A DNA stretch of 64,000 bases from Rhodococcus sp. CH91 (GTDB lineage: Bacteria; Actinomycetota; Actinomycetes; Mycobacteriales; Mycobacteriaceae), in assembly GCF_022554085.1 (NCBI RefSeq), contig NZ_JAKFYR010000013.1, forward strand, positions 1 through 64,000. The letters are read 5' to 3'. The notes beneath the pieces were generated by a model. That model was not told the origin of the DNA. It saw only the letters and a list, made by a program, of their open reading frames with translations, and made no database searches. Positions 48,016-62,926 of the stretch are shown in pieces. Both the position numbers and the translations under genes were made by a program. Position 1 is the first letter of the stretch, and every line of letters begins with the position of its first letter.

Positions 48016-49608
48016 TCAGAACACGAGTACCGCGAAGACGGTGGAGAGGACCAGTCCGGCCATCACCGGCAGGAAGCACTTCCGGGCGAGATCCAGCACG
48101 GGCACCCGGGCGAAGCCGGCCACGGCGACCAGCGAGGACCAGGCGATGATGACGCCACCACCCGACCAGATGTTGCCCATCTGGCCGATCGCCGCGAGAG
48201 TCGACGGATCGACGTCGACGGCGGGGCCGAGTGCCCCCGAGAGCGCACCGGTGAGCGGGAGGCCACTGAAGCCGGAGCCGTCGAGCCCGGCGACCACGCC
48301 GATGAGCAGAATCCCGAACGAGGTGACGAAGGCGTTCTGTGGCAGGTGCGCCTGAACCGAGGTCACGAGATCGAACAGGATCGCCGGCCCCGCGGCATCG
48401 GCGGACAGGCCGAGGATCGGACCCGCGAAATCCGGGTTGCCGATGAAGAAGAAGCCGGCGATCGGCAGCACGCAGCCCATCGCCTTGAACGCGAAGACCA
48501 GGCCGTCGACGAGATGGTCGGAAGTGGTCTCGAGGAAACTCGCCCGGTCGGTCGAGGCGGCCGCGGCGAACAGGATGAGGGCCGCGATCCCGCCGACGAT
48601 CGCGGCGGCTTCCCCGCCCTGTAGAGGGGGCACGACCTCGGTGAACTTACCCAGCATCAGGTAGACGATGAAGGCGAGATAGGCCAGCGGCACGAGCATC
48701 GCGAATGCTTTCGCGGTACCGCGGCGCTCCTTCTCCGCCTCGGCATCGTGACGATCGGAGGGGTCGGCGACAGGATCCGACGGAGCGACGAGCACCGCTG
48801 TGGCTGCAGCCGTCTGTTCGCCACCCCCGAGAGGGCCACCGGCCGGTTCCGGACGCGGAGTGCGGGAACCGCTGTCACCACCGCCCGACGGAGCGCCGCC
48901 GCCACGGGCGTCGCCGATTCCGCGGTCGGCCTCCGCCTCCCATTCGACGAGCAGATCGGGGGACGGCGTCCGCCAATGTCGTTTCTGCACCAGATAGGTG
49001 ATCACCAAAGCCGTGCCGCCGACGATCAGCGAGAGGACCAGAGCCTTGTCGGCCACGGCATCCGCTTCGACGCCTGCCGCTGCCGCCGAGATGCCCGGGG
49101 CGACCTTGATGATGTAGTCCGACGACAGCGCCATACCCTGACCGCAGATCGCGATGACCATGCCCACCGACAGCGGGGACATGCCGGCACGGATCGCGAC
49201 GGGGATGAGCACCGCGCCGACGAGGGGCACGGCCGGGGTGGGCCAGAAGAACAGCGAGATCACGTAGGTGACGGCGGCGAGGACGAGGAAGCTGCTGGTG
49301 CCCGCGCGCATGACGCGCCGGAAGGGGGCGACCATCATCCGGTCGGCGCCGAGTTGGCGCAGCGCGCCGAGCATGGCCGTGACCATCGCGATGATGAGGA
49401 AGATGTTGAACAGTTCCTTCGCCGCGACGAGGCTCGCGTTGAAGATGGAGGACAGTCCCGTGACGATGCTGCCCGAGAACGTCAGGGCGGTCAGGAACGT
49501 GGCGACGACTGCCGGAACGACGATGTTCTTGCGCAGGGCCATGGTGACCAGGATGACGAGGATGCCGGCCAGATAGACCCAGTGCGCGGCGGTGAGTTGT
49601 ACGTCCAA
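48016..49608 (-). CDS. Ion-transporter-superfamily permease (GntP/DcuC-like)
   Basis: The protein has 530 residues and about 12 hydrophobic helices, with ALRKNIVVPAVVATFLTA near the start and a repeated inner structure typical of the ion-transporter superfamily (C4-dicarboxylate, gluconate, citrate carriers). A polar Gly/Asp/Glu-rich loop of about 75 residues lies in the middle (near 230-305), unusual in length. The substrate is probably an organic acid, which I infer from fold only. The start is TTG at 49608 with GAAGGAAG 7 bases upstream. It diverges from the MFS gene, and the upstream gap holds a 12-mer also found before the PucR regulator, so it likely imports the substrate of that pathway. 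Confidence 0.85.
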   Translation of the reverse strand: MDVQLTAAHWVYLAGILVILVTMALRKNIVVPAVVATFLTALTFSGSIVTGLSSIFNASLVAAKELFNIFLIIAMVTAMLGALRQLGADRMMVAPFRRVMRAGTSSFLVLAAVTYVISLFFWPTPAVPLVGAVLIPVAIRAGMSPLSVGMVIAICGQGMALSSDYIIKVAPGISAAAAGVEADAVADKALVLSLIVGGTALVITYLVQKRHWRTPSPDLLVEWEAEADRGIGDARGGGAPSGGGDSGSRTPRPEPAGGPLGGGEQTAAATAVLVAPSDPVADPSDRHDAEAEKERRGTAKAFAMLVPLAYLAFIVYLMLGKFTEVVPPLQGGEAAAIVGGIAALILFAAAASTDRASFLETTSDHLVDGLVFAFKAMGCVLPIAGFFFIGNPDFAGPILGLSADAAGPAILFDLVTSVQAHLPQNAFVTSFGILLIGVVAGLDGSGFSGLPLTGALSGALGPAVDVDPSTLAAIGQMGNIWSGGGVIIAWSSLVAVAGFARVPVLDLARKCFLPVMAGLVLSTVFAVLVF

Positions 49609-49996
49609 GGCGCTTCCTTCGACAGGAGGTGGAACGAGTCGGGCTGTTTCGCAGACGGTGACTTTCGGAACTCGATGTAGTGGAGGAACTTTCCGTATCG
49701 CGTCGTGCCCGGTCAACGAGAACCGTGCACAGTGACCGTCACGCTAGCTGTGCACTGTGTTCTTCTTTTGCGATTTCGTGTCGTCAGCTCGATCGGATGT
49801 GACAAATTGCTACGAACATGTGTCGCGCGCCCGGCGCCGGCCCCGGACGATCGGTGAATGTGCACCCTGCACCGGATCGCACGTGATCGGTGTGCATGTT
49901 GTCCGCGGGACGGCGATGCATCCGGCGGTGTCGCAGTGCGACAGTGGGTCGACGGCACGAACCGTGCCGCCAGATTCCGAGGTTCCGGGGAGTTCG
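49609..49996. other. 388-base divergent regulatory gap
   Basis: This gap lies between the permease (minus) and the MFS transporter (plus) and holds no gene I can support. Its left half has GTGCACAG at 49725-49732, CTGTGCAC at 49748-49755 and the 12-mer TGTGCACTGTGT at 49749-49760, an inverted pair around a 15-base spacer. A T/C-rich tract (TTCTTCTTTT) follows. These are candidate PucR sites. Confidence 0.55.
49749..49760. promoter_or_regulatory. Candidate PucR site TGTGCACTGTGT, copy 1
   Basis: This 12-mer occurs again at 53161-53172 in the PucR/GlcG gap. Here it lies about 140 bases upstream of the permease start and 237 bases upstream of the MFS start. A partly inverted copy (GTGCACAG) stands 17 bases to its left. 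Confidence 0.55.
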
Positions 49997-51406
49997 ATGA
50001 CCACTCGCACCGATGTTCCGGCAGCGCCCGTCGCCGAGACCGACACGGGCACTCCTCTGGCGCTGTCGGCCCTGCTCGCCGGGACCCTGGTCGGGACGCT
50101 GAGCAACAACATTCTCAATGTTCCTCTACCGCAAATACTTTCCCATTTCGATGCGAGCCTGGAAGACGGCGCGCTGCTCGCCGTGGGTTTCCTTCTGACG
50201 TTCGCCGCGTCGATGCCCCTCGCGGGGTACATCGGTGATCGTTACGGTCGGCGCCGTGTCTACTGCGGAGCCCTGCTCGGCACCGCGATCTGCGCGGCCG
50301 GGGCTGCGACGGCACCGACCCTCGAGATCCTCGTGGCCTGGAGGGCACTCGGAGGGCTCGCCGCCGCGGCCTTCGCGCCGGCCGTCATGGGATTGATCGC
50401 CTGGCTGTTCGGTGCCCGCCGGCGCGCACGCGCGGTGGGCGCGTGGGCCACCGTGAACGGACTCGGCCAGGCGATCGGCCCGACGCTGGGCGGTTTCGTT
50501 GCGGGACAATGGGGCTGGCGGTGGGTCTTCGTCCCGATGATTCCGATCGCTCTCGTCGGCCTCGCCGGGACCCTGCGCTGGATCCCGGTCTTTCCCGGGC
50601 GGCCGATGAACCTCGACGTGCCGGGTGCGGTCACGCTCACCGCCGGTTCCGCCGGGATCGTACTGGGATTGAGCATGTTCGGGCAGGCAGGCGTTCCCCC
50701 GTCCGCCGCGGGCATCGTGCTGGCGGTGTCGGTGGCCGTCCTCGTCGGGTTCGTCGTGCACTGCCGTCGTGCGACCGAGCCGTTCGTCGAAGTACGACTG
50801 CTGGTCGAGAGCCGATTCGCACGAAGTGCGGTCGCCGCGTTCGCCCAGATGTTCTGCCTGGGTGCGGCCTTGCTGGCCGTCCCACTGCGCCTGCACTCCA
50901 CGGGCGCGACCACCGCCACGGCCGGTGCGATCCTGTTCGCTCTTCCCGCGGTCATGGCCGCCCTCGCGCCGCTCGTCGGCCGCACCGTCGATCGCGTGGG
51001 CGGGCGGCGGATGCTGCGCGCAGGTCTGGTGATCCTGCTGTTCGGTCAGATCGCGCTCGCCGTCGTGCTCGCTGCGGACCGGCCGCGACTGTGGCTGGTC
51101 GCGGCGATCCTGGCCGTGACCGGCGCCGGTATCGCCGCGGTACAGACACCCGCTGCCGCAGGATCGACGCGTTCTCCCGCGGGCGAACGCGGGACGGGGC
51201 TGGGGATGTTCAATCTCGTCCGTTTCGGCGGCTCCGCCGTCGGGGCGGCGTGGGTGACGGTGGCATTCGGGACGTGGACCGTCGGGCCGCTCTTCGTGGT
51301 GTGTGCCGTGGTCGTGGGCGCGGGTCTGGCCGCGTCGTTCCTCGGTTCGGATCCGGAGGAGCACACCGGATCGGAGTCCCGCTCGACCGCCCTCAGCGAT
51401 AGTTGA
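49997..51406 (+). CDS. MFS transporter
   Basis: The protein has 469 residues and about 12-14 helices of the major facilitator fold. Motif A is seen as GYIGDRYGRRRVY after helix 2; NGLGQAIGPTLGGF is the motif C-like part of helix 5. It may export or import a small organic compound. ATG at 49997 has GGGGAG 4 bases upstream. Its stop overlaps the stop of the PucR gene by 14 bases, the two genes converging. The shared regulatory motif upstream links it to the catabolic cluster at 53323-60085. Confidence 0.88.
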   Translation: MTTRTDVPAAPVAETDTGTPLALSALLAGTLVGTLSNNILNVPLPQILSHFDASLEDGALLAVGFLLTFAASMPLAGYIGDRYGRRRVYCGALLGTAICAAGAATAPTLEILVAWRALGGLAAAAFAPAVMGLIAWLFGARRRARAVGAWATVNGLGQAIGPTLGGFVAGQWGWRWVFVPMIPIALVGLAGTLRWIPVFPGRPMNLDVPGAVTLTAGSAGIVLGLSMFGQAGVPPSAAGIVLAVSVAVLVGFVVHCRRATEPFVEVRLLVESRFARSAVAAFAQMFCLGAALLAVPLRLHSTGATTATAGAILFALPAVMAALAPLVGRTVDRVGGRRMLRAGLVILLFGQIALAVVLAADRPRLWLVAAILAVTGAGIAAVQTPAAAGSTRSPAGERGTGLGMFNLVRFGGSAVGAAWVTVAFGTWTVGPLFVVCAVVVGAGLAASFLGSDPEEHTGSESRSTALSDS

Positions 51407-53045
51407 TCTCGTTCTCCACCGAGGTGCGCAGGCGATCGAGAAGTTCGAGCCTGATGGCGAGCCACGCGGTGAACTGGTTCTCGGGCAGTCGGACATCCAT
51501 CGCCATCGCACGGGAGATCCGGTCGATCTTCGACAGCATCGTGTTGCGGTGCACCGACAACTCCCGCGCCGCCGCATTGACGTTTCCGCCGGCGGAGAGA
51601 TACGCCAGCAGCGTGTCGTACAGATCGGTCCCGGGCTTGAGCGCTCCGAGCACATCCCCGACGAACCGGCGGCTGCGGTCGGTGTCGGCGACCAGCTCGA
51701 GCACCCCGTAACCCCGCAGATCCCGGTAGGCCACCGATCCCGACATCCCGAGCCGCTGCCCGATCCCGAGCGCCACGCGGGCCTGGCGGTAACTCTCCCG
51801 GATCTGGTCTGCTCCGACGGCGGGAGCACCGTGTGCCACAGGCACCGGGCGTACCCGCCGGCGGGACAGATCCTGCGAGACCGCATCCGCATACTCGCTG
51901 ATCTCGAGCTCGATGTCGCGCGGGTCGCGGTACCGGAGCGAACGCACCACCACCAGGACGTCACCGATCACGGTGACATACGAACGTACCGACGGATGGG
52001 GCAGGACGCTGGCCGCGTATCGGGCCAGCCGCAACAGGCCGCCCGCCTCCTCACCACCGGAGCGCACGGGATTCTCGCCGTAACCGGGGGCCACGAACAC
52101 CGCGAATGTCGACGTGAGGTCGATGTCGTGGTACTCGGCACGAGCCTGCATGTCGTGCGCACTCGTGAAGCTCCCGTGCACCAGTGCCTGGACGAAATCG
52201 CCACGAGCCCGTTCCTCGGCCTCGTCGACGCTGCGTTGCCGCAGCATCTCCGAACCGATGATCGCTGTGGCCTGGTCGGTGACGACCGCGTGCTGCGCCA
52301 GTTCGTGCGGGCCCGGACACGCTCCCGAGGCGAGTACCACGACCCAGCCCTCGAATCGTTTGCCGAGCCGGATGATGCTCGCCGTGCATGTCCAGTGCGT
52401 GCCGCCCACGATCTCCTGTACCACGCGGGTGTCGTGGTGGGCGTGACGATCGGCGGCGGTCGCGGTCGACAACTGCTTGTGCAGCACCTCCGAGATCTCT
52501 TCCGCCTGGACCGCATTCACTCCGTGGAAGGCCACGGCGTGACCGCGCGCGTCGAGCGCCACCGCGGGATGCTGGGCGAGGGCGGCGACCTCCTTGACCA
52601 GCAGGGTCAGTCCCGCACCGCGGTGCAGCAGACCGGCGAGCGTCGAGTGCACGTGCGCGGAATAGCGCATGACGTGGACTTCCTGCATCAGCGACCGTTC
52701 GGCGAGCAGGCGGTTCAGTGCCGCGAATCCGACGGGCAGGTCGAGTTCGATCACGACGAGCCCCGGGGGCCACGCCATTCCGGCGGGTACCGCGCCGTCC
52801 ACGAGCAGTGCTGCTGCGTCGCGGGCGGCGAGCGACGGCAGGGCGTGCGCGCCCTCGGCGAGCGATTCCGGCCGTATGTAGACGGCAACGGCCGTCAGAT
52901 CGTCGAATCGGCCGATGACCTCGCCGAACGGCAGCACCCAGGTGAGTGCTCTGTCGAGCTCCACCTCCCGGCGCACCACCCGGGCGCCGGCCATGAGCGG
53001 TTCGTCGAGCAACCCTCGGACGGTCAGGCGTGGACTCGGTTCCAT
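51393..53045 (-). CDS. PucR-type transcriptional regulator
   Basis: The protein has 550 residues. The N-terminal PucR domain (PRLTVRGLLDEPLMAGARVV onwards) covers the first 130 residues. A middle part holds a CdaR/GGDEF-like region (FAVFVAPGYGENPV, VTVIGDVLVVV). The C-terminal HTH_30 domain has LSAGGNVNAAARELSVHRNTMLSKIDRI (core VNAAARELSVHRNT). PucR regulators control purine, amine and amino-acid-derivative catabolism, often as activators. ATG at 53045 has AGGTCC upstream. It diverges from the GlcG-HDO operon, with a near-perfect 17-base palindrome in the gap, and probably controls that operon. Confidence 0.9.
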   Translation of the reverse strand: MEPSPRLTVRGLLDEPLMAGARVVRREVELDRALTWVLPFGEVIGRFDDLTAVAVYIRPESLAEGAHALPSLAARDAAALLVDGAVPAGMAWPPGLVVIELDLPVGFAALNRLLAERSLMQEVHVMRYSAHVHSTLAGLLHRGAGLTLLVKEVAALAQHPAVALDARGHAVAFHGVNAVQAEEISEVLHKQLSTATAADRHAHHDTRVVQEIVGGTHWTCTASIIRLGKRFEGWVVVLASGACPGPHELAQHAVVTDQATAIIGSEMLRQRSVDEAEERARGDFVQALVHGSFTSAHDMQARAEYHDIDLTSTFAVFVAPGYGENPVRSGGEEAGGLLRLARYAASVLPHPSVRSYVTVIGDVLVVVRSLRYRDPRDIELEISEYADAVSQDLSRRRVRPVPVAHGAPAVGADQIRESYRQARVALGIGQRLGMSGSVAYRDLRGYGVLELVADTDRSRRFVGDVLGALKPGTDLYDTLLAYLSAGGNVNAAARELSVHRNTMLSKIDRISRAMAMDVRLPENQFTAWLAIRLELLDRLRTSVENEINYR

Positions 53046-53159
53046 AGGGACCTGCTTCCCTCGGGAGCGTCGGCGGCGGCCCCGCACGAGACGGGTCCAC
53101 CGACACCCTGGCGGTGTGCACTTTCTACATCAGTTACCAGAGTCATGAGTCCCTCGCAC

Positions 53160-53176
53160 ATGTGCACTGTGTACAT
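53160..53176. promoter_or_regulatory. Candidate PucR operator, palindrome with copy 2 of the 12-mer
   Basis: ATGTGCAC-T-GTGTACAT is a 17-base palindrome with one mismatch. It contains TGTGCACTGTGT, the 12-mer also found at 49749. A related TGTGCACT lies at 53115-53122. A second inverted repeat, GACGGT/ACCGTC around TGATCA, follows at 53191-53209. Confidence 0.6.
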
Positions 53177-53322
53177 CCGAGGTCCGAAACGACGGTGATC
53201 ATGACCGTCCCCATCCGTCGCCCGCCCTGTTAGAAATGAGCCCACGCCGGTCGCACCACTTCCTCCGGCCCCGGCGCAGCGAATCGACAGCGTCCCCCAT
53301 CCGACCTCGAAAGTGGAGACCA

Positions 53323-53772
53323 ATGCATCGAATCCACCGCATCACCCTCGACGACGCGCTCCCCCTGCTCGCCGCCGGCCGCGCCAAGGCCGAGGAGATC
53401 GGCGTCAAGCAGACCCTGTGTGTCTGCGACGAGAGCGCGAATGTGATTGCTCTGCACCGGCTTCCCGGCGCGCGTCTCACCGGCGTCGAGATCGCCATGG
53501 CCAAGGCGTTCACCGCTGCCGGCCACGAGCGGGCGACGCACCTGTTCAACGAGGGCCCGAACGGGCCGGCACTGCCCGGCAACGAGGCATTCGGCATCAG
53601 CCACATGCTCCCCGGCAAGTTCGCGATCTTCGTCGGTGGCTTCCCGCTCGTCTACGACGGACAGATCGTCGGGGCCGTCGGCATCAGTGGGGGCAACGGC
53701 GAGCAGGACAAGGCGGTCGGCGCCGCCATGATCGCCGAATTCGAAGCCCTCACCTCCTCGATCAACGCCTGA
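53323..53772 (+). CDS. GlcG/HbpS (DUF336) family protein
   Basis: The protein has 149 residues and matches the GlcG/HbpS (DUF336) fold: ITLDDALPLLAAGRAKAEEIG at the start, VCDESANVIALHRLPGARLTGVEIAMAKAFTA in the middle, and FVGGFPLVYDGQIVGAVGISGG at the end. Members bind haem or cobalamin-related cofactors or assist enzymes in catabolic operons; what it binds here is unknown. ATG at 53323 has GGAG 4-5 bases upstream. It is the first gene of the operon opposite PucR and lies 38 bases before the di-iron enzyme gene. Confidence 0.88.
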   Translation: MHRIHRITLDDALPLLAAGRAKAEEIGVKQTLCVCDESANVIALHRLPGARLTGVEIAMAKAFTAAGHERATHLFNEGPNGPALPGNEAFGISHMLPGKFAIFVGGFPLVYDGQIVGAVGISGGNGEQDKAVGAAMIAEFEALTSSINA

Positions 53773-53810
53773 TCCGTTCCGCACGAACCTCCTCATCGAA
53801 AGGCATCATC

Positions 53811-54530
53811 ATGACCGAACTGCTCGGACGCGACGAGTTCCGCGCCGCACTCGAAGACGCCATCAAGGGACGCGAGGCGAAGAACGCATCCTTCAGCAAG
53901 GCATGGGCCGAGGGCAAACTCGAGAAGCACCACTTCGCCCGCTGGGCCGAGAACCACTACCACTACGTCGGGCCCTTCGCCGACTATCTGGCGAACATCT
54001 ATTCCAATACGCCCGATCACTACACCGACGCCAAGGACTTCACCCTCCAGAACATGTACGAGGAGGAACTGGCCGACATCCGGCACACCGACCTGCTCAT
54101 CAAGTTCGCCGAGGCGTGCGGAACCACCAAGGAACGCGTCGAGGATCCGAACAACATGAATGCCGTCACCCGCGGACTGCAGGCGTGGTGCTACGCGGTG
54201 TCCCAGCGGGAACACTTCGTCGTCGCCACCGCAGCGCTGGTCGTGGGCCTCGAATCGCAGGTGCCGAGCATCTACAAGAAGCAGATCGTCCCGCTGCGCG
54301 AGGTGTACGGATTCACCGAGGACGAGATCGAGTTCTTCGACCTGCACATCACCTCCGATGTGGTGCACGGTGAACGCGGTTACCAGATCGTCCTGGACTG
54401 CGCGGACACTCCCGAACTGCAGCAGCGCTGCCTGCAGCTCGTCCGCTGGGGAGCGGAGATGCGCTACTCGTACACCAAGGGCCTGTACGACACCTACGTC
54501 GCTCCCGATCTGGAGCTGGCGTCCGCCTGA
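53811..54530 (+). CDS. Haem-oxygenase-like di-iron oxidase/oxygenase (HDO, TenA/PqqC fold)
   Basis: The protein has 239 residues and an all-helical fold of the TenA/PqqC/haem-oxygenase group. Its sequence has the six metal ligands of HDO enzymes such as CADD, UndA and BesC: Glu85 and His92 (E-x6-H), Glu148, and His179-x3-Asp183-x2-His186. The thiaminase Cys and Asp of TenA are absent, so thiamine salvage is unlikely. HDO enzymes use two irons and O2 for oxidative C-C cleavage, N-oxygenation or desaturation. The next genes code a Rieske ferredoxin and a reductase, which could feed it electrons. ATG at 53811 follows GAAAGG. Substrate unknown. Confidence 0.9.
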   Translation: MTELLGRDEFRAALEDAIKGREAKNASFSKAWAEGKLEKHHFARWAENHYHYVGPFADYLANIYSNTPDHYTDAKDFTLQNMYEEELADIRHTDLLIKFAEACGTTKERVEDPNNMNAVTRGLQAWCYAVSQREHFVVATAALVVGLESQVPSIYKKQIVPLREVYGFTEDEIEFFDLHITSDVVHGERGYQIVLDCADTPELQQRCLQLVRWGAEMRYSYTKGLYDTYVAPDLELASA

Positions 54531-54598
54531 TCCGTTGCGGGGGAGCCGAAATCGAGCGAGATTTCCGCTCCCCCGCCGCACACGAGCGAAGGAGAAGC

Positions 54599-54991
54599 AT
54601 GTCCACCGAAATCATGGGCAGCGGGACCACCGGCACCGGCGCCGCAACGGAGTCCCCGGCCTGGGTCGCCGTCGCCACGGTGAAAGAGGTGACCCGCCGC
54701 CGCAAGCTCCGCGTGGAGGTCGACGGCCTCGCGATCGCACTGTTCCATGCGAACGACCGCATCTACGCCTTCGCCGACCTGTGCATCCACCAGGACCGTT
54801 CCCTCGCGAAAGGCACGCTCCTGCACGGACGTGTCATCTGCCCCGGCCACCAGTGGCGCTTCGATCTCGAAACCGGATACGAAGAGGACCAGGACCTCTG
54901 CCAGCCGGTCTATCCCGTCCTGGTACGCGACGAGACCGTCCACATCGATCCCACCCCACGTCCCGCCTCCGGAAAGGAGTGCACGGCATGA
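54599..54991 (+). CDS. Rieske-type ferredoxin
   Basis: The protein has 130 residues. The 2Fe-2S cluster is bound by Cys62-x-His64 and Cys81-x2-His84, the ligands of a Rieske cluster (CIH and CPGH). It has no oxygenase domain, so it is an electron carrier. The N-terminus is a flexible 20-residue tail. ATG at 54599 has GAAGGAG just upstream. Its stop overlaps the start of the reductase gene by 4 bases. Together they form a two-part chain from NAD(P)H to an oxygenase, most likely the HDO encoded before it. Confidence 0.92.
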   Translation: MSTEIMGSGTTGTGAATESPAWVAVATVKEVTRRRKLRVEVDGLAIALFHANDRIYAFADLCIHQDRSLAKGTLLHGRVICPGHQWRFDLETGYEEDQDLCQPVYPVLVRDETVHIDPTPRPASGKECTA

Positions 54992-56214
54992 CCGTTCGCA
55001 CCGTGGTCACAGTCGGTGCCGGCCAGGTGGCGGCCGTCGCCGCACGTACACTGCGCCGGCGCGGCTTCGACGGACGCATCGTCCTGCTCGGCGACGAGCC
55101 GTACGCACCCTATCAGCGCCCGCCTCTGTCCAAGGAGTTCCTCGCCGGTCGCGAAGGAGTCGGATCCCTGGCTCTGCTGACGCCGAAGTGGCTCGACGCC
55201 AACGACATCGACATCCGTACCGGTGTGCAGGTGCAACGCATCGACACCGCGCGCCGCACCGTCGAGTTCGACGGTGGCGAGATCGCGGCCGACGCGATCG
55301 TCCTCGCGACGGGTGGACGCCCCCGCACCCTCCCCACCACCGGATCCCGCCCCGATCTCGTGCACTACCTGCGCACGCTCGACGACGCGACCGCACTCGC
55401 GGCACGGCTGACCCCGGGATCGACTCTCGCGATCGTCGGCGGAGGCTTCATCGGGCTGGAGATCGCCGCCACCGCACGCTCACTCGGTGTGACGGTGACG
55501 GTCGTCGAGCAGGCGGGCCACCTGCTCGGGGGCATCCTCGGCGAGCAGGTCGGACGCTACTGCGCCGATCTGCACCGCCGCAACGGAGTGGACCTGCGCA
55601 CCGGCACCGGTGTCGCCTCGGTGACCACCTCCGAGAGCGGCGTCCGGATCACGACCACCGGTGGTGACATCATCGACGCCGACGCCGTGGTGGTCGGTAT
55701 CGGCATCGTGCCCAACACCGACATCGCGACGACGAGCGGACTGACCGTCGACGGTGGGGTCGTGGTCGATTCCACCGGACGTACCTCGGTCGAGAACATC
55801 TACGCGGCAGGTGATGTCGCGAAGCGATTCTCCCCGCGGGAAGGCCGGCACGTCCGCGTCGAGCACTTCGACAATGCGAACCGGCAGGCGGCCGTCGTCG
55901 CCGACACGATCGTCGGCCGGCAGTCGCTCTCCGACGACCCGCACTGGTTCTGGTCGGATCAATACGACACCAATATCCAGTTCGCCGGATCAGCCTCCGG
56001 AACAACAGAACTCGTCGTCCGCGGCGATACCGACAGTGGAGAGTTCTCCGTCTTCTATCTCGCGGGAGACGTACTGGCCGCCGCCTTCGCGATGGACCGC
56101 GGCGAGGACATCATGGCGGCGCGCGAACTCGTCGGACGCAGAGTCGACGCGGCGCTGCTCGCCGACGAGGACACCGATCTGTGGGAGATGTACGAGGAGG
56201 TCGAGCCGGCATGA
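54988..56214 (+). CDS. FAD-dependent ferredoxin reductase
   Basis: The protein has 408 residues of the BenC/ThcD-type ferredoxin reductases. The FAD loop VGAGQVAAVAA begins near residue 9, YQRPPLSKE is the conserved substrate-side motif near 44, and the NAD loop IVGGGFIGLEIA lies near 150. The second FAD segment ENIYAAGDVA and the C-terminal ferredoxin-reductase domain (WFWSDQYDTNIQFAG) complete it. It passes electrons from NAD(P)H to the Rieske ferredoxin. ATG overlaps the ferredoxin stop as ATGA, and its own stop overlaps the dehydrogenase gene. Confidence 0.94.
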   Translation: MTVRTVVTVGAGQVAAVAARTLRRRGFDGRIVLLGDEPYAPYQRPPLSKEFLAGREGVGSLALLTPKWLDANDIDIRTGVQVQRIDTARRTVEFDGGEIAADAIVLATGGRPRTLPTTGSRPDLVHYLRTLDDATALAARLTPGSTLAIVGGGFIGLEIAATARSLGVTVTVVEQAGHLLGGILGEQVGRYCADLHRRNGVDLRTGTGVASVTTSESGVRITTTGGDIIDADAVVVGIGIVPNTDIATTSGLTVDGGVVVDSTGRTSVENIYAAGDVAKRFSPREGRHVRVEHFDNANRQAAVVADTIVGRQSLSDDPHWFWSDQYDTNIQFAGSASGTTELVVRGDTDSGEFSVFYLAGDVLAAAFAMDRGEDIMAARELVGRRVDAALLADEDTDLWEMYEEVEPA

Positions 56215-57665
56215 CGATCATCGGTCTGAACCACATCGACGGAGACTGGGTACCGGCGGCTTCCGGAGCCGTCTTCGAACGGCGCAATCCCGCCGACGAA
56301 TCCGACCTGATCGGCACCTTCCCGGATTCCGATGCACTCGACGTCCGCAACGCCGTCGACGCACTCGACAAGGCCGCGCCCGACTGGGCGTCCACCCCGC
56401 CGGAGCGCCGGGCCGCGATTCTCGAAGCGGCGGCCGAGCATCTCGCCGCACACTCGGCCGAACTCGTCGACGAACTCGTCCGCGAGGAAGGCAAGACCCG
56501 GGCCGAAGCGTCGATGGAGGTGAGCCGCACGCCCATGAACCTGCGGTTCTACGCGGGTGAAGCGCTGCGCTCCACCGGTGCGACCTTCCCCTCCCCCGGT
56601 TCGACGACGATCTACACCCTGCGCGAACCGATCGGGGTCGTCGGGGCGATCACGCCGTGGAACTTCCCCCTCAACATTCCCTCCCGCAAGCTCGGGCCCG
56701 CGCTGGCCGCCGGCAACACCGTGCTGTTCAAGCCGTCCGAGATCACCCCGCTGATGGGGCAGCGGCTCGTCGAAGCGCTGCTGGCCGGCGGTCTGCCACC
56801 CGGAGCCGTCGCTCTCGTCCACGGCGACGGCAAGGCCGGTGCCGCGGTGGCCGCCGACGAGCGGGTCGCGGCGGTCACGTTCACAGGATCGACCGAGGTC
56901 GGGCGGGCCATCCACCGCAGCGTCGGCCCCGACCGGCGCGTCCAGCTCGAAATGGGTGGGAAGAACCCGGTGGTGGTCCTCGCCGACGCGGACCTCGACG
57001 CCGCGGCCGCGCTCGTCGTCAAGGGCGCATTCGGACTGTCGGGCCAGGCCTGCACCGGCACCAGCCGGGTCGTCGCCGTGGACGCGATCCACGATGCGCT
57101 GCTCGAGAAGGTCGCCGAGCGCACCCGCGCACTGCGGGTGGGCCCCGGTTCGGGTGCGAAGGTCGATCTGGGGCCGCTCGCGAGTCGCGGGCAGCTCGAC
57201 AAGTTCCTCGAGTACGTCGCCATCGGCACGGACGAGGGCGCACGCCTCGTGTGCGGCGGCGTGCGGTGCGACGACGAGGAACTGCGCAACGGATTCTTCG
57301 TGCGGCCCACCGTGTTCGCGGACACCGCTCCGGGGATGCGCCTGCTGACCGACGAGATCTTCGGCCCGGTCCTGGCCTTCCAACGAGCCGCCTCCTTCGA
57401 CGAGGCCCTCGCCCTGGCGAACGACACCGCCTTCGGCCTCAGCGCCTCCGTCGTCACGAGAAGCCTCGCCGACGCACATCGTTTCGTCGCCGGATCCCGG
57501 ACCGGACTCGTGAAGGTCAATCAGCCCACGACCGGAATGGCCATGAACGCACCGTTCGGCGGTTACAAGCAGTCGAGCACCCAGACGTTCAAGGAACAGG
57601 CCGGCCCCACACTGATGCAGTTCTACCAATCCGAGAAGACCGTCTACCTCTCCCCCGACGCCTGA
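56211..57665 (+). CDS. Aldehyde dehydrogenase family protein
   Basis: The protein has 484 residues. TPWNFP near 149-153, FKPSEITP, FTGSTEVG at 224-231, catalytic Glu247 in LEMGGKN and Cys281 in GQACTG are all present. It resembles the alpha-ketoglutaric-semialdehyde and succinate-semialdehyde dehydrogenase branch, which oxidises dicarbonyl or semialdehyde substrates with NAD(P). ATG at 56211 overlaps the reductase stop by 4 bases. It would oxidise an aldehyde released by the oxygenase step. Exact substrate unknown. Confidence 0.92.
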   Translation: MTIIGLNHIDGDWVPAASGAVFERRNPADESDLIGTFPDSDALDVRNAVDALDKAAPDWASTPPERRAAILEAAAEHLAAHSAELVDELVREEGKTRAEASMEVSRTPMNLRFYAGEALRSTGATFPSPGSTTIYTLREPIGVVGAITPWNFPLNIPSRKLGPALAAGNTVLFKPSEITPLMGQRLVEALLAGGLPPGAVALVHGDGKAGAAVAADERVAAVTFTGSTEVGRAIHRSVGPDRRVQLEMGGKNPVVVLADADLDAAAALVVKGAFGLSGQACTGTSRVVAVDAIHDALLEKVAERTRALRVGPGSGAKVDLGPLASRGQLDKFLEYVAIGTDEGARLVCGGVRCDDEELRNGFFVRPTVFADTAPGMRLLTDEIFGPVLAFQRAASFDEALALANDTAFGLSASVVTRSLADAHRFVAGSRTGLVKVNQPTTGMAMNAPFGGYKQSSTQTFKEQAGPTLMQFYQSEKTVYLSPDA

Positions 57666-57703
57666 TCGTCGAGCAGACCTCACACATGCCTGGAGGAAAG
57701 ACC

Positions 57704-58060
57704 ATGGAGTTCAAGCGAGTGGCCCGATCCGGGCAGGTGCCCGAAGGCATCGTCCGCCGGTTCTATGCGGACGACTACGAGTTCGCCATTTCCCGACTGG
57801 ACGGCAAGGCGTATGCGACGTCCAACTACTGCTCGCATCTGGACTGCCTGCTCTCGTCGGGCAAGCTGGTCCAGGACGGCATCGGATGTTCCTGCCACGG
57901 AAGCGCATTCGATCTGGAGACCGGCGAACCGATCTGCCCTCCGGCGACCGAACCGATCAAGACGTACCCGTGCGAGGAGCGCGACGGCGAGATCTTCGTC
58001 GGGATCGATCCGGCCGAGCCTCCGGAGGGCCCGCGCCGGCGCCGGATGCGATCGGCATGA
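57704..58060 (+). CDS. Second Rieske 2Fe-2S protein
   Basis: The protein has 118 residues. Rieske ligands are Cys43-x-His45 (CSH) and Cys62-x2-His65 (CSCH). It has a longer C-terminus ending in a basic RRRRMRSA. It differs clearly from the first ferredoxin (which starts 3 kb before), so the operon codes two distinct carriers. ATG at 57704 has GGAGG 7 bases upstream. Its stop overlaps the Ntn-hydrolase start as ATGA. It might serve a second oxidation step or act as a domain that docks to the HDO. Confidence 0.9.
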   Translation: MEFKRVARSGQVPEGIVRRFYADDYEFAISRLDGKAYATSNYCSHLDCLLSSGKLVQDGIGCSCHGSAFDLETGEPICPPATEPIKTYPCEERDGEIFVGIDPAEPPEGPRRRRMRSA

Positions 58061-59652
58061 GGCGGCGCACCACTCGACCGGCCACGCTCGCGACCGGCGG
58101 CATGGTCGCGTCGAGTCATCCGCTCGCGAGCCAGGCCGGGGCGCGCGTCCTGGCCGAGGGTGGCAACGCGGTGGACGCGGCCCTGACGATGGCGGCGATC
58201 ACCTGGCTGACGCTGCCCGGGCAGTGCGGGATCGGCGGTGATGCGTTCGCGGTGGTGCGCGAGCCGGACGGGTCCGTCTGGACGGTCAACGGCAGTGGTT
58301 ACGGACCCGACGGCGGCACACCGGGCTTCTACCGTGACCGGGGACTGGGTGCGATTCCCCTCGACGGCGCTCTCGCCGTGACCGTGCCGGGTGCGCCCGC
58401 CGCGCTCGCGGAACTGCACCGGCACGGGGCGAGCAGGCCACTGCCCGACCTGTGGGCACCCGCCGTGCGCATCGCCGAACGCGGGCTGCCGTGTTCGGCG
58501 AAGACCCGCACGGACGTGCAGACGGCACTGCAGGCGATCCGCACCGACGCCGGGCTGGCCTCGGTGTTCGCTCCGGGCGGCCGGCTTCCCCGCGTCGGCG
58601 AAGTGCTCGCCCAACCCGACCTCGCCCGCACGATCCGATCTCTGGCCCACGATCCGCACGCCTTCTACACCGGCACACTCGCCGAGCGGTGCGTGGATGC
58701 CCTGCAGGAGGGCGGGGCACCGTTCTCGGGTGACGAATGGCAGGCCGGGGCGTCGGTGGAGGCGGAAGCCGCACTGACCGGCACGTACTCGGGGCACACG
58801 GTGCACCAGACCCCGCTCCCCACACCGGGGTGGATGGTGCTGCACCAGGCAGCCCTGTGCGACGGAACGCTCCGGACGCATCCCGTGCTCGGAGCAGCGG
58901 CGATCGACCGGATGGCCCGCGCAGCCGGCCTCGCCTTCGAGGACAGGCTCCGCTGGTGCGCATCGGACAACGACGGCGTCACCCGGGTGCTCGACGACAC
59001 CAACATCGCCGCCGGGCACGCCCGGATCACCGAGCGTGCGCCGGTGGGGACGTTCGCTGTGGCAGGCGGGGACACGACGTCCTTCGTCGCGGTGGACGCG
59101 GACGGGCGAGCGGTCTCGTTCATCCATTCGCTGGCGTTCACCTTCGGTGCGAAACTCACCGTCCCGGGCACGGGAATCGTGCTCAACAACCGACTCGGCC
59201 GCGGTGCCTATCTGATCGAAGGCCACCCGAACGAGATAGCGCCGCGCCGGAAACCCCTGCACACCCTCAACGCGTGGATCGTCACCGATGCGGCGGGCGA
59301 GTTGCGGCATGTGGGCAACACCCCCGGTGGCGACGGCCAGGTGCAGTGGAACATGCAGTTGCTGTCCCACCTGCTCGATCACGGTCTAGACCCTCAGGAG
59401 GCGGTATCGGCGCCGCGGTTCACCGTCTTCCCCGGATCGGATGCGAACGTGCTCGGCGAACCCACCGTGCTGCGCATCGAAGCGGATGTGGCAGAGGGTG
59501 TGCCCCACGCGCTGACCGAGCTGGGCCACCGCGTGGAAGTACTCGAACCGCTGAGCGCCGACGGGAGCGCTCAGGTGATCTCGCTCGACGAGGACGGGGT
59601 GCTGCGCGGAGGCAGCGACCCGCGACAGGAAGGAATCGCTCTCGGTGTCTGA
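58057..59652 (+). CDS. Gamma-glutamyltransferase-like Ntn hydrolase
   Basis: The protein has 531 residues of the gamma-glutamyltransferase family. GGNAVDAALTMA near 35 and the processing site GGDTTSFVAVD with the nucleophile Thr340 are present, the latter taking the place of NTTHYS. There is no signal peptide, so it acts in the cytoplasm. The Arg that binds the gamma-glutamyl carboxylate in E. coli GGT (in DFREMAP) is not seen in the matching stretch, NGSGYGPDG, so another amide, such as an N-acyl or oxamate-type one, may be the substrate. ATG overlaps the Rieske stop by 4 bases. Confidence 0.9.
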   Translation: MRRRTTRPATLATGGMVASSHPLASQAGARVLAEGGNAVDAALTMAAITWLTLPGQCGIGGDAFAVVREPDGSVWTVNGSGYGPDGGTPGFYRDRGLGAIPLDGALAVTVPGAPAALAELHRHGASRPLPDLWAPAVRIAERGLPCSAKTRTDVQTALQAIRTDAGLASVFAPGGRLPRVGEVLAQPDLARTIRSLAHDPHAFYTGTLAERCVDALQEGGAPFSGDEWQAGASVEAEAALTGTYSGHTVHQTPLPTPGWMVLHQAALCDGTLRTHPVLGAAAIDRMARAAGLAFEDRLRWCASDNDGVTRVLDDTNIAAGHARITERAPVGTFAVAGGDTTSFVAVDADGRAVSFIHSLAFTFGAKLTVPGTGIVLNNRLGRGAYLIEGHPNEIAPRRKPLHTLNAWIVTDAAGELRHVGNTPGGDGQVQWNMQLLSHLLDHGLDPQEAVSAPRFTVFPGSDANVLGEPTVLRIEADVAEGVPHALTELGHRVEVLEPLSADGSAQVISLDEDGVLRGGSDPRQEGIALGV

Positions 59653-60085
59653 TCACAGTGCTGCACCCACGATTGCACCTCGCCCCCAGGGCCGGTACGT
59701 GCCCGCGGTTCTGGCCGGCGACACCGTCCGCACGGCAGGGATGACACCGCGGCGCGACGGCACCCTGATCCTCACCGGACGAGTCGGCGCCGAGGTCACC
59801 GTCGACGAGGCGCGCACGGCAGCCGCGCTGGCCGTGGACAACGCGCTGGCGGCGATCCGCTCGACGCTCCGGGACGGAACGACCTTCCGGCCCGTCGAGA
59901 TGATCGTCTACATCGCCACCGCACCCGGCTTCACCGACCTGTCGGTGGTCGCGGACGGCGCGTCGGCCGTGATCGAGCGCGAACTCGGGCCGGACGCCTT
60001 GCCCGCTCGCACCGCTGTGGGTGTCCACACCCTGCCCGGTGCGGCGCCCCTCGAAATCGCGCTGACCGCCGTCCTCACCACCTGA
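59645..60085 (+). CDS. RidA family protein
   Basis: The protein has 146 residues and the RidA fold: GRYVPAVLAGDTVRTAGMTP at the start, and ARTAVGVHTLPGAAPLEIALTAV at the end with Arg122 and Glu137 that position the imine in RidA. It would hydrolyse reactive imines or enamines. That fits an operon that oxidises an amine or amide. GTG at 59645 overlaps the hydrolase stop by 8 bases. It ends the operon, and the next gene converges 11 bases away. Confidence 0.92.
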   Translation: MSDHSAAPTIAPRPQGRYVPAVLAGDTVRTAGMTPRRDGTLILTGRVGAEVTVDEARTAAALAVDNALAAIRSTLRDGTTFRPVEMIVYIATAPGFTDLSVVADGASAVIERELGPDALPARTAVGVHTLPGAAPLEIALTAVLTT

Positions 60086-60096
60086 CCGCGAACGGT

Positions 60097-60672
60097 TCAG
60101 TTCCGCAACGCGACGTTCTCGAGTTCGGCTGCGAGATCGATGCTCTCGGAGGGTCGCTGCCAGCGATACACTCCACCGCCCAGGGCGTAGGAGAGGTGAC
60201 CGCCGAGAGCACCACCCACGCCGACGGCACCGAGACCGAGGAGTGTCCACACCGTCCCCGCCCGGTCACGGCGGGCGCGGCGCTCCCGATACGAGGTCGC
60301 GAGACATACCGCCCCGATCGCGTTGGACACGGCGTGCACCGCCCCGACCCGGCGCTGGGGAACATCGAGGGCGGAGAAGTCGGCCCAGCCGGTGACCACG
60401 GTCGGAACGGTCGCGGCCAGTCCGAGGGCGACGAGTTTCCGGGATGCCTCCCGCTGCCCGGGCACGGCGTCCAGCACCGCTGCGGACACCCACGACCCGA
60501 TCGGGAGGGTGACGAGCAGAGGATGGACGGGGTGCCCGAGCCAGGAACCGCGGAGCAGGCGATCGACGGCAGAGCCGTCGAGGACTCGTCGTATGCGCTG
60601 CGCGACGCGCTCGGCGGGTCGATCCACCGCGTCGAAGGATTCGACGGCGCGCAGAAGTTCGTGCAGATTCAT
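60097..60672 (-). CDS. DUF2231 membrane protein
   Basis: The protein has 191 residues with about four membrane helices. LGHPVHPLLVTLPIGSWVSA near residue 45 is the DUF2231 mark, with the two His residues of the HPxHP motif (GHPVHP). GWADFSAL and VGAVHAVSNAIG are also typical. Function is not known; a haem or redox role has been guessed from conserved His. ATG at 60672 has a weak ribosome site. It lies 40 bases past the dnaX stop, so it may be read from the dnaX transcript. Confidence 0.87.
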   Translation of the reverse strand: MNLHELLRAVESFDAVDRPAERVAQRIRRVLDGSAVDRLLRGSWLGHPVHPLLVTLPIGSWVSAAVLDAVPGQREASRKLVALGLAATVPTVVTGWADFSALDVPQRRVGAVHAVSNAIGAVCLATSYRERRARRDRAGTVWTLLGLGAVGVGGALGGHLSYALGGGVYRWQRPSESIDLAAELENVALRN

Positions 60673-60712
60673 ACAGAGGCGATACCCGGCCGCAGCAGGT
60701 GCGAATCGCCGG

Positions 60713-62926
60713 CTACTTCTCGTCGAGCGGCTTCGCGCCCAGCATGTCCTTGAGCAGTTCGATCGCGACGTCCTCCGGATCGCGGCGTGTCGACGGATCA
60801 CCGGGCGTAGCGGCCTCGGCGAACATCTCCTCGACGTCCGCCTCCGTCATCTGCGACGGATCGGGCGGTGTCGGATCGTCGTAGACGGGATCCGGCCCCG
60901 GGTCGTCCGGCAGGTCGGGCGCTTCGGGCGGCGGGATGTCGTCGGCGCTCTCGACCGAGGGACGGGTGAACGTCGGGGCCACGGTAGCCGCCTGCCGTTG
61001 CGGTGCAGCGGGGGTTTCGGCGGGCGCGGCCGGCGGGACGTTCTTGGCCTGACTCGGGCGGGAGAAACGTGGCTGACCCGACGGACGCGAGTTCTTCTCC
61101 GGTGCCTGGGTCTTCACGGGCGCTTCGGCGGCCGAGCCGTGGACGCAGGTGACCTCGAATTCCGCACCGAACACCGCGTGCAGCGCGTCGGCGATCACTG
61201 CGGCGTTACGCGGATCGGCGAGCCTTTTGGCCAGCGGAGCGGAATCGTGGACGAGCACGACCCGGCTGCCCTCGACCGAGCGCACGGTGGCGCCCGAGAG
61301 CATGACCTCCACGGTACGACTGCGCTCGCGGACCTTCGTGCGCACTTCCGACCACACGCCACGCATCTGGGCGGCGTCGGGGCCCGCGGCGGCCGGGATG
61401 GCGGGTTCGATGGGCGGTGCAGACTGCTCCTCGACGGGCGCCGCCCGCTCCTCGACGCGCACAACCTCCGGTGCGGGAGGTGGAACTTCCTGCACGGCAA
61501 CCTCTTCGATCGCAGGAGCGCTCTGCGGCCGTGAAGCGTCCGACTCGACGGGAGGTTCCGGCGCAGGTGGCTGCGGGGCGGCAGAGGGTTGCGGGGTAGC
61601 AGGGGGCTGCGGAGCCGGAGCTTCCTCGTGCACGGGCGCGACGGGAGGCGCCTCCTCGGCGCGACGTCGGGAGGGCCGCTGGAAACGAGCCGCAGGTTCG
61701 TCGGGCGAGATGGGCGGCGCGGCCGGTGCCGCAGCACTCGGCGCCGGCCTCGAGACCGCGCCACCGGGCGCAGCGACGATCCCCTGTTCGAGACGTTCGA
61801 GTCGTTGCAGCACAGCGGTTTCCGCTTCGGAAGCGGCGGGGAGCAACATGCGCGCACACATCACTTCGAGCAACAGCCGCGGCGACGTGGCTCCACGCAT
61901 CTCCCCCAGCCCCGCGTGCACGATCTCGGCATAGCGGGTGAGGGTGGCAGGGCCGAGGCGGGTCGCTTCGTCGCGCATCCGTTCGAGCACGTCGCCGGGC
62001 GCGTCGACGAGGCCGCGCTCGGCGGCGTCGGGGACCGATTTCACGAGGATGAGATCGCGGAGGCGCTCGAGGAGATCGACGGCGAAACGACGCGGGTCGT
62101 GCCCGGCGTCCATGACCTTCTCGACGGTGCCGAACAGTGCCGCACCGTCGCCCGCTGCGAGCGAATCGACCGCTTCGTCGATGAGGGCGACGTCGGTGAC
62201 ACCGAGCAGCGACAGGGCTCGGTCGTAGGTGACGCCTTCCGGACCGGCACCGGCGAGGAGCTGATCCATCACCGACAGCGAGTCGCGGGGAGAACCGCCG
62301 CCGGCGCGGATGACCAGCGGATAGACGGCATCCTCGACCGGCACGTTCTCCTGCCCGCAGATCTGTTCGAGCAGACCCCGCATCGCGGTGGGTGCGAGCA
62401 GCCGGAACGGATAGTGGTGCGTGCGTGACCGGATGGTGGGCAGCACCTTCTCGGGTTCGGTGGTCGCGAAGACGAAGATGAGATGCTCCGGCGGCTCCTC
62501 CACGATCTTGAGCAGGGCGTTGAAACCCTGCGTGGTGACCATGTGCGCCTCGTCGATGATGAAGATGCGGTAGCGCGATTCGGCAGGTGCGTAGAACGCG
62601 CGGTCGCGCAGTTCGCGGGTGTCGTCCACACCACCGTGGCTCGCGGCGTCGAGTTCGGTGACGTCGAGGTTGCCCCCACCACCCGGCCCCAGCGACAGGC
62701 AGGACCGGCATGTCCCGCACGGGGTCGATGTGGGGCCGCTCTCGCAGTTGAGCGAGCGGGCGAGAATACGGGCCGAGGAGGTCTTGCCGCACCCACGGGG
62801 CCCCGAGAAGAGGTAGGCGTGGTTGATGCGGCCCGTGTCGAGTGCCGTGCTGAGGGGCACGGTGACGTGCTCCTGGCCCACCACCTCAGCGAAGGTCGCA
62901 GGTCGATACTTCCGGTACAGAGCCAC
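60713..62926 (-). CDS. dnaX: DNA polymerase III subunits gamma/tau (DnaX)
   Basis: The protein has 737 residues. The AAA+ clamp-loader part has Walker A GPRGCGKTS near 42, the four zinc Cys residues, Walker B IIDEAHM and the sensor TTEPEKVLPTIRSR. A long Pro/Ala/Glu linker fills about 420-540, then a second conserved domain (RSRTVEVMLSGATVR) typical of the mycobacterial protein. GTG at 62926 gives the expected N-terminus ALYRKYRPATFAEVVGQ. No Shine-Dalgarno site is seen before it, so the mRNA may be leaderless. In M. tuberculosis dnaX follows Rv3720; here it is 32 kb apart from that block. Confidence 0.96.
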   Translation of the reverse strand: MALYRKYRPATFAEVVGQEHVTVPLSTALDTGRINHAYLFSGPRGCGKTSSARILARSLNCESGPTSTPCGTCRSCLSLGPGGGGNLDVTELDAASHGGVDDTRELRDRAFYAPAESRYRIFIIDEAHMVTTQGFNALLKIVEEPPEHLIFVFATTEPEKVLPTIRSRTHHYPFRLLAPTAMRGLLEQICGQENVPVEDAVYPLVIRAGGGSPRDSLSVMDQLLAGAGPEGVTYDRALSLLGVTDVALIDEAVDSLAAGDGAALFGTVEKVMDAGHDPRRFAVDLLERLRDLILVKSVPDAAERGLVDAPGDVLERMRDEATRLGPATLTRYAEIVHAGLGEMRGATSPRLLLEVMCARMLLPAASEAETAVLQRLERLEQGIVAAPGGAVSRPAPSAAAPAAPPISPDEPAARFQRPSRRRAEEAPPVAPVHEEAPAPQPPATPQPSAAPQPPAPEPPVESDASRPQSAPAIEEVAVQEVPPPAPEVVRVEERAAPVEEQSAPPIEPAIPAAAGPDAAQMRGVWSEVRTKVRERSRTVEVMLSGATVRSVEGSRVVLVHDSAPLAKRLADPRNAAVIADALHAVFGAEFEVTCVHGSAAEAPVKTQAPEKNSRPSGQPRFSRPSQAKNVPPAAPAETPAAPQRQAATVAPTFTRPSVESADDIPPPEAPDLPDDPGPDPVYDDPTPPDPSQMTEADVEEMFAEAATPGDPSTRRDPEDVAIELLKDMLGAKPLDEK

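Follow-up and report, generated by a model that had tools for sequence, protein, structure and literature searches.

The DNA analyzed here, termed the window, is a 64,000-nucleotide stretch of a 108-kb contig of the soil bacterium Rhodococcus sp. CH91. Eight genes between 53323 and 60085 were all encoded on the plus strand, with intergene gaps of 38, 68, −4, −4, 38, −4, and −8 bases, that is, with three overlaps of 4 bases and one of 8. This agrees with the eight same-strand genes and several 4-base overlaps described in an earlier, sequence-only reading. In order, the run encoded an HbpS/GlcG/DUF336-like protein (53323..53772; PF03928, 1.5e-31), a haem-oxygenase-like dimetal oxidase/oxygenase (HDO; 53811..54530; PF14518 Haem_oxygenas_2, 1.9e-36), Rieske ferredoxin 1 (54599..54991; PF00355, 2.7e-14; C62-x-H...C-x-x-H), an HcaD/AndAa-like FAD-dependent NAD(P)H:ferredoxin reductase (54988..56214; Pyr_redox_2, 1.8e-66; Reductase_C, 3.5e-26), an aldehyde dehydrogenase (ALDH; 56211..57665; PF00171 Aldedh, 3e-148; GQAC at 278 and LEMGG at 246), Rieske ferredoxin 2 (57704..58060; PF00355, 6.3e-18; C43-x-H...C-x-x-H), a GGT-like Ntn hydrolase (58057..59652; PF01019 G_glu_transpept, 1.1e-94), and a Rid-family protein (RidA; 59645..60085; PF01042 Ribonuc_L-PSP, 2.3e-12). 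The run was adjoined by a PucR-type regulator gene divergent from the operon (51393..53087, minus strand; HTH_30, 1.7e-14; GGDEF_2, 4.5e-12), an MFS transporter gene (49757..51406, plus strand, with an uncertain start at 49757 or later; MFS_1, 8.1e-57, in a domain search that used 50000 as the start), and a gene for a membrane transporter-like protein (48016..49716, minus strand). Pfam thus agreed with the gene identities given earlier, including PucR and two transporters alongside, except that the 48016..49716 protein had no Pfam or NCBIfam match at E ≤ 0.001. This protein contained 13 hydrophobic stretches; its start is uncertain, and its conserved part began near 49608.

The HDO scored 126 bits against PF14518, for which the cut-off is 28.9. 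Its 3-His/3-carboxylate ligand set (E85, H92, E148, H179, D183, and H186) did not vary across alignments of 10 and of 28 sequences, and all six positions aligned with the ligands of the CADD structure 1rcw. The closest solved chains were 4-aminobenzoate synthases, and the best NCBIfam matches were CADD (TIGR04305, 96 bits) and PqqC (TIGR02111, 48 bits), which would be expected if the protein were a self-sacrificing p-aminobenzoate synthase of the CADD/NePabS type, or a PqqC-like enzyme, with unrelated neighbours. However, both scores were far under the respective cut-offs of 200 and 240. The positions of the sacrificial Tyr27 and Lys152 of CADD were occupied by Ser29 and Gln158, both invariant in the two alignments, and HDO identity in a phylum sample was bimodal, at 76% or at ≤31%. 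A p-aminobenzoate synthase identity was rejected on the replaced residues and the CADD score and a PqqC identity on its score, leaving this reading extremely improbable. We propose that the HDO is the putative catalytic component of the operon. According to a 2026 review (PMC13108848), functional validation exists for only about a dozen HDOs, and those described in its available text make natural products or cofactors.

The HDO was found in 37 of 401 genomes of the same family, and the GGT-like gene was found in 38, namely the 37 HDO genomes plus one; in genome G134, the GGT-like gene had no other cluster gene within 12 kb. Gene content was counted in 61 actinobacterial loci spanning 20 kb or more, drawn from the best 80 of 506 relatives by HDO identity, so that the loci are all close and the apparent conservation of the HDO is inflated. 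Each of the other ten genes occurred in 47 to 61 of these loci: both Rieske genes and the reductase in all 61; ALDH, PucR, and RidA in 60 each; and the HbpS-like gene, the GGT-like gene, the MFS gene, and the 48016..49716 transporter in 59, 58, 57, and 47, respectively. Among the exceptions, L113 had neither GGT nor RidA within 20 kb, and L089 and L097 were without GGT. The median identity across the 61 loci was 79.5% for Rieske ferredoxin 2 versus 67.3% for Rieske ferredoxin 1. Around a 76% identical HDO in another actinobacterial genome lay Rieske, Fer2 ferredoxin, GGT-like, ornithine-cyclodeaminase (OCD), HbpS, ALDH, and SDR genes. Because the gene set recurs in other actinobacterial genera, it is more than a chance arrangement, and it is widely conserved and apparently unstudied. 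Recurrent neighbours beyond the eleven genes comprised DUF1275 proteins (24 and 14 loci) and lineage-specific flanks; no substrate-naming gene was found among them.

The best NCBIfam match of the reductase was HcaD, at 363.9 bits, under the cut-off of 450. On the 108-kb contig, the only two Rieske domains (PF00355) were those of the short ferredoxins, and Ring_hydroxyl_A (PF00848) and P450 (PF00067) gave no match. A nearby Rieske oxygenase or P450 as the ferredoxin client was rejected on these searches, which makes the HDO the strongest candidate for that role. The other contigs of the genome held 5 Ring_hydroxyl_A and 24 P450 match places, and several HDOs run on ascorbate or mediators in vitro according to the available text of PMC13185094; the Rieske proteins and reductase could accordingly serve an oxygenase elsewhere in the genome, with the HDO working without them. 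This is quite improbable, given that both Rieske genes and the reductase stood beside the HDO in all 61 long loci and that the HDO neighbour in Burkholderiaceae is a reductase of another type in their place. These findings favor the earlier suggestion that the HDO has its own Rieske chain, and the HDO would then draw its electrons from the proteins encoded next to it. The accompanying generalization that most studied HDOs lack a dedicated Rieske partner has to be qualified, since a dedicated redox partner has precedent in MboB, as described in the available text of PMC13185094.

In six Burkholderiaceae records, the HDO was 67–70% identical to that of the window, and gene content was examined in three loci out of 7 plasmid matches. 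The HDO, ALDH, HbpS-like protein, and transporter were kept in all three, the relatives of the 48016..49716 transporter showing 47–50% identity. In the same three loci, a BenC-like reductase replaced the Rieske and reductase genes, and an OCD relative replaced GGT and RidA. The reductase of C. metallidurans, which adjoins the HDO, showed Fer2, FAD_binding_6, and NAD_binding_1 in a domain search. Thus, the expectation that the Rieske, reductase, Ntn hydrolase, and PucR genes stay with the HDO held in actinobacteria (58–61 of 61 loci) but not in the three Burkholderiaceae loci. Because Rieske, GGT-like, and RidA genes are missing from these loci, neither the hydrolysis of an amide nor the removal of an imine is a universal step. 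The replacements suggest that the function may have been retained while the electron module and the nitrogen-handling genes were swapped, as does the finding that the ALDHs accompanying the HDO formed three distinct groups with approximately 39–50% identity between groups. With the electron module exchanged around a strongly conserved HDO, the way in which the HDO is reduced in the cell becomes a directly testable question.

Thr340 of the GGT-like protein aligned with the small-subunit N-terminal Thr nucleophile of GGT. In true GGT, an Arg holds the gamma-glutamyl carboxylate, and a Ser-Ser motif is also present. The window protein has Ser80 at the position of the E. coli-type Arg114 and H402-T403 at the Ser-Ser pair, and it scored 244.7 against the equivalog TIGR00066 (cut-off 357.85), suggesting that it is probably an amidase rather than a gamma-glutamyltransferase. 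Two findings led us to set aside a Puu-like gamma-glutamylation route: the carboxylate-binding Arg is absent, and no glutamine-synthetase-like gene was found among the recurrent neighbours examined. RidA retained R122 and E137, and a conserved Arg and Glu are the mark of active Rid proteins. Its score of 21.6 against TIGR00004 was far under the cut-off of 106.25, indicating a divergent Rid, and the protein is probably an enamine/imine deaminase. An oxygenase beside an amide-cleaving enzyme also calls to mind a Dirammox-like N-oxygenation, in which the HDO would hydroxylate the nitrogen of an amide or amine, leaving a hydroxamate for the Ntn hydrolase to split. The same logic is found in the diiron oxygenase DnfA, the NADH-dependent 2Fe-2S reductase DnfB, and the glutamine amidotransferase DnfC, as far as the available texts describe them (PMC9136411, PMC12575085), and some HDOs are N-oxygenases (PMC13108848, available text). 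Such a route would have no need for ALDH or RidA, both of which are conserved, and the GGT-like hydrolase was absent from all three Burkholderiaceae loci examined; we therefore consider it unlikely.

In the HbpS-like protein, K61, S122, and D129 aligned with K57, S114, and D121 of EfgA. Since these residues are largely conserved across DUF336, as stated in the available text of PMC8153426, they do not prove an EfgA function, and an aldehyde-binding or helper role may be suggested for this protein. The 48016..49716 protein likely serves substrate uptake. The best NCBIfam match of the MFS protein was the EmrB efflux model, at 153.4 bits and below the cut-off of 230.2; given its resemblance to drug exporters, export fits as well as uptake. 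This nearness to efflux models, together with the roles of HDOs in natural-product biosynthesis covered in the available text of PMC13108848, would suit a biosynthetic operon whose HDO, like most characterized HDOs, produces a small natural product or a cofactor for export by the MFS protein. However, no carrier, ligase, or assembly-line gene was found among the recurrent neighbour families examined; a second conserved transporter together with ALDH, an amide hydrolase, and RidA is in keeping with a degradative operon; and the spread of the HDO is very wide yet patchy, as the count within the family indicates. On this evidence, a biosynthetic role was given a low probability.

Operator-like TGTGCA sites were located between the two transporter genes (49726..49904; sites at 49726, 49749, 49859, and 49891) and between the PucR and HbpS-like genes (53115..53174; sites at 53115 and 53161). 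Three of the four sites in the first region fit TGTGCANNNTGNNC, as did the site at 53161. TGTGCA was present between the transporters in 41 of 41 intergenic regions (176 sites versus a shuffle mean of 17.65) and upstream of the HbpS-like gene in 39 of 44 regions (versus a shuffle mean of 6.33). The motif pattern had 46 matches genome-wide versus 24 for the reversed control, and the pattern alone is therefore not specific. An operator-like motif common to both promoter regions fits one regulator, consistent with the role assigned to PucR in the sequence-only reading, and PucR may use a TGTGCA-containing site to control both the operon and the transporters.

We somewhat favor the interpretation that 53323–60085 is a catabolic operon built around a multi-component dimetal oxygenase acting on an imported nitrogen compound. 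The oxidative operon proposed earlier is upheld in part, as regards synteny in actinobacteria, the Rieske partner, and the regulator motif, and not as regards the universality of the partner genes. For the substrate class and the order of steps, we infer the following. The conserved transporter would bring in a nitrogen-containing organic compound, and electrons would pass from NAD(P)H through the FAD reductase and the Rieske ferredoxin, whose genes and motifs are present, to the HDO. With O2 at its 3-His/3-carboxylate site, the HDO would oxidize the carbon adjoining the nitrogen, acting as a monooxygenase or by oxidative C-N or C-C cleavage, and would release an aldehyde and an amide or imine fragment. 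Judging from their families, ALDH would then oxidize the aldehyde, the GGT-like Ntn hydrolase would split the amide, RidA would hydrolyze the enamine or imine, and the HbpS-like protein would bind or sense the aldehyde. PucR would act on the operon and the transporters through the TGTGCA site.

No description of the HDO/Rieske/GGT/RidA gene set was found in full-text searches of the open-access literature, in line with the earlier remark that no such pathway had been described; the available text of a transposon-fitness paper does not mention the HDO (PMC9007349). There is an even chance, in our estimation, that the operon specifies a soluble multi-component oxygenase of a new, catabolic class with the HDO as its oxygenase component. 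In such a class, the HDO fold would stand in for Rieske oxygenases or for diiron monooxygenases of the ferritin-like type, and exchangeable chains would supply its electrons (Rieske ferredoxin and FAD reductase in actinobacteria, a BenC-like reductase in Burkholderiaceae). If so, the HDO superfamily would gain its first catabolic branch, which would add a degradative role to the family and provide a genetically testable system with natural electron donors. Such a branch would also reveal a new route for the breakdown of a nitrogen compound common in soils, and with it a step of soil organic-nitrogen turnover that has so far gone unrecognized.

Several known systems resemble parts of the operon. 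The Rieske ferredoxin and FAD reductase are like HcaC/HcaD and AndAb/AndAa of three-component Rieske oxygenases, but no alpha subunit was found on the window contig, and the HDO stands in the place of the oxygenase. The Rut pyrimidine pathway likewise combines an oxygenase, an amide hydrolase, a Rid deaminase, and a transporter in one operon; it differs in that RutA is a flavin oxygenase and in having no HDO, Rieske chain, or such ALDH. The K/S/D residues lining the formaldehyde pocket of EfgA are kept in the HbpS-like protein, whereas efgA has no conserved context in the available description (PMC8153426) and the HbpS-like gene is tied to one operon. CADD/NePabS are the nearest solved sequence relatives of the HDO and share its ligand positions (PMC13108848, available text), but their sacrificial residues are replaced in the HDO and the operon context is entirely different. 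Dirammox DnfABC shares a diiron oxygenase, an NADH-dependent 2Fe-2S reductase, and an amide-cleaving partner; its seven genes, in the available accounts (PMC9136411, PMC12575085), include no ALDH, RidA, or HbpS. The nearest precedent found is MboA/MboB of mangotoxin, an HDO acetylenase with a dedicated partner, in which, according to the available text of PMC13185094, the HDO adjoins its own NADH-dependent flavin/Fe2S2 reductase. The Cupriavidus HDO relatives are like MboA/MboB in having a reductase with the Fer2, FAD, and NAD layout. MboA/MboB, as described there, is biosynthetic and acts on a peptide substrate, whereas the window combines a Rieske ferredoxin and a separate FAD reductase with ALDH, a hydrolase, RidA, transporters, and PucR.

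Eight genes were confirmed to run on the + strand from 53323 to 60085, and their Pfam names matched those given in the sequence-only reading: an HbpS-like protein, the haem-oxygenase-like dimetal oxidase/oxygenase (HDO, 53811-54530), Rieske 1, an FAD reductase, an aldehyde dehydrogenase (ALDH), Rieske 2, a gamma-glutamyltransferase (GGT)-like protein and RidA. The 4-base overlaps that it had reported were also found (three, plus one of 8 bases), and the regulator and two transporters that it had placed beside the operon lie at 48016-53087: the regulator is of the PucR type, one transporter is an MFS protein and the other corresponds to a membrane protein (48016-49716, - strand) that neither Pfam nor NCBIfam models matched at E ≤ 0.001. 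This membrane protein belongs to a twelve-to-thirteen-segment family kept from Rhodococcus to Cupriavidus, and several loci hold a second copy (for example, L053 16333-17841, 44% identity). The cluster is flanked by an NhaA-type Na+/H+ antiporter gene (45711-47189; PF06965, 9.2e-133) and, on the other side, by a DnaX-like clamp-loader gene (60713-63049), with a DUF2231 gene (60097-60801) between the latter and the cluster. A second Haem_oxygenas_2 protein (PF14518, 2.4e-55) is encoded elsewhere in the genome (contig C38, 181276-181794).

In the same-family search of 401 genomes, the HDO was present in 37 (84-100% identity, E ≤ 1e-20), the 84% match being that of G017, whose entry shows one TGA; six same-genus genomes among those listed were without it. 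The GGT-like protein was found in 38 of the 401 genomes (E ≤ 1e-120), including all 37 with the HDO. In the single extra genome, G134, the other cluster genes were not found within the first 12 kb of the contig with the GGT-like gene.

The cluster is a real, conserved system. A scan of named genomes yielded 506 stretches encoding HDO relatives, and co-occurrence was counted in the 61 loci of at least 20 kb among the best 80 of the 506, chosen by HDO identity. The synteny proposed as a check in the sequence-only reading held in these loci: Rieske 1, the reductase and Rieske 2 each accompanied the HDO in 61/61, PucR in 60 (as did ALDH and RidA) and the GGT-like gene in 58. The HbpS-like gene was present in 59 loci and the MFS gene in 57; the transporter was counted in 47, some of those scored as absent extending past the locus end. 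Among the exceptions, judged within their stretches, L113 had neither GGT-like gene nor RidA, L089 and L097 had no GGT-like gene, and PucR, HbpS-like gene and ALDH were all absent from L092. One gene order is common to Rhodococcus, Gordonia, Nocardia and Mycolicibacterium, but the order is rearranged in Blastococcus, Nocardioides, Streptomyces, Actinomadura and Pseudonocardia, indicating that co-occurrence is more than inheritance of a single order. In the phylum sample, 26/396 genomes matched the HDO at E ≤ 1e-10. Apart from the window's own genome, one match had 76% identity and the other 24 had ≤31%, which sets the HDO clade off as a discrete one. Genes for DUF1275 membrane proteins are repeated neighbours of the cluster (24 loci in one group and 14 in another; for example, L074 3550-4374 and L088 9070-9921), and some loci carry an amidase-like gene, named by eye, between the regulator/operon and a transporter copy (L090 16725-18113, L107 18768-20138).

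The HDO was the best-conserved cluster protein (median 89.8% in the 61 loci, whose selection by HDO identity favours it), followed by the HbpS-like protein (85.1%) and Rieske 2 (79.5%). Alignments of 10 and of 28 sequences showed no variation at the six metal ligands that make up the 3-His/3-carboxylate set, nor at Ser29 and Gln158, which align with Tyr27 and Lys152 of CADD, residues that CADD itself consumes according to an HDO review (PMC13108848).

Seven plasmid records matched the HDO: one is a PqqC with 25% identity, and the other six, from Cupriavidus or Caballeronia, reach 67-70%. The proposed synteny did not extend to the three of them examined in detail: all three retained the HDO, ALDH, HbpS-like protein and transporter, and in all three a reductase gene, an ornithine-cyclodeaminase (OCD)-family gene and a GntR regulator replaced the Rieske, FAD reductase, GGT-like, RidA and PucR genes. 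The C. metallidurans reductase has Fer2, FAD_binding_6 and NAD_binding_1 domains, and the nearest solved chain to its OCD-family protein (L033 10916-11851) is 3hdj, a probable ornithine cyclodeaminase (3.5e-112). The HDO was the best-conserved protein here too: it was 69-70% identical in Cupriavidus, versus 45-54% for ALDH, HbpS-like protein and transporter, and 76% identical in genome G431, versus 30-52% for other matches to window genes. The G431 cluster is a mixture of the actinobacterial and Cupriavidus/Caballeronia layouts, its HDO having Rieske, Fer2 ferredoxin, GGT-like, OCD, HbpS-like, ALDH and short-chain dehydrogenase (SDR) genes as neighbours; the window's reductase, RidA, PucR, MFS and transporter as queries had no match at this locus. 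This version (L145 12975-13901, 16923-17693) includes a luciferase-like monooxygenase and an SDR, and a similar SDR, judged by eye, lies near the transporter in L096. ALDHs accompanying the HDO form three groups, with about 39-50% identity between groups. Fe-S and flavin electron supply, aldehyde oxidation and imine-like nitrogen handling are retained despite gene exchange, which is the main argument for the pathway proposed here.

Both Rieske proteins have complete cluster motifs, and profile searches of the 108-kb contig carrying the window found no further Rieske domain, no Ring_hydroxyl_A and no P450 match. The better conservation of Rieske 2 than of Rieske 1 hints that Rieske 2 may be the direct donor of the HDO. 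The GGT-like protein retains the Thr nucleophile, but Ser and His-Thr stand in place of the Arg and Ser-Ser that belong to the gamma-glutamyl site of GGT. RidA is divergent (TIGR00004, 21.6 bits) but retains the Arg and Glu conserved in active Rid proteins. The HbpS-like protein retains three formaldehyde-pocket residues of EfgA, which suggests, rather than proves, a small aldehyde as ligand, because these residues are described in the EfgA paper as largely conserved among DUF336 proteins (PMC8153426).

Of 44 Mycobacteriales regions upstream of the HbpS-like gene, 39 contained TGTGCA (shuffle mean 6.33); the gap between the two transporters contained it in 41/41 (176 sites; shuffle mean 17.65). 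These loci are mutually related, a kinship that the shuffle controls ignore. The longer pattern TGTGCANNNTGNNC had four window matches versus 0.41 expected, all in these two intergenic gaps; with 46 matches genome-wide versus 24 for the reversed control, it is unspecific by itself. Judging from gene position, PucR is the putative binder of the TGTGCA sites.

In the proposed pathway, substrate uptake would come first. Electrons would pass from NAD(P)H through the reductase and a Rieske protein to the HDO, which would catalyse an O2-dependent oxidation beside nitrogen to give an aldehyde; this would then be handled by ALDH, followed by amide hydrolysis and then imine hydrolysis. We infer the electron flow, chemistry, step order and substrate from the observed genes, motifs, co-occurrence and exchange.

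Consistent with the earlier statement that no described pathway has this set, the cluster was not found described in the full-text literature searched, which mostly excludes subscription papers, and it is apparently a system without earlier description. In the main text of the HDO review, "ferredoxin" is absent and "Rieske" occurs solely with Rieske dioxygenases (PMC13108848). According to an April 2026 paper, MboAB may be the first pair of an HDO and a dedicated redox partner to have been characterised (PMC13185094). Dirammox, as outlined in two papers (PMC9136411, PMC12575085), shares the logic of the cluster by combining a diiron oxygenase with a reductase and an amidotransferase.
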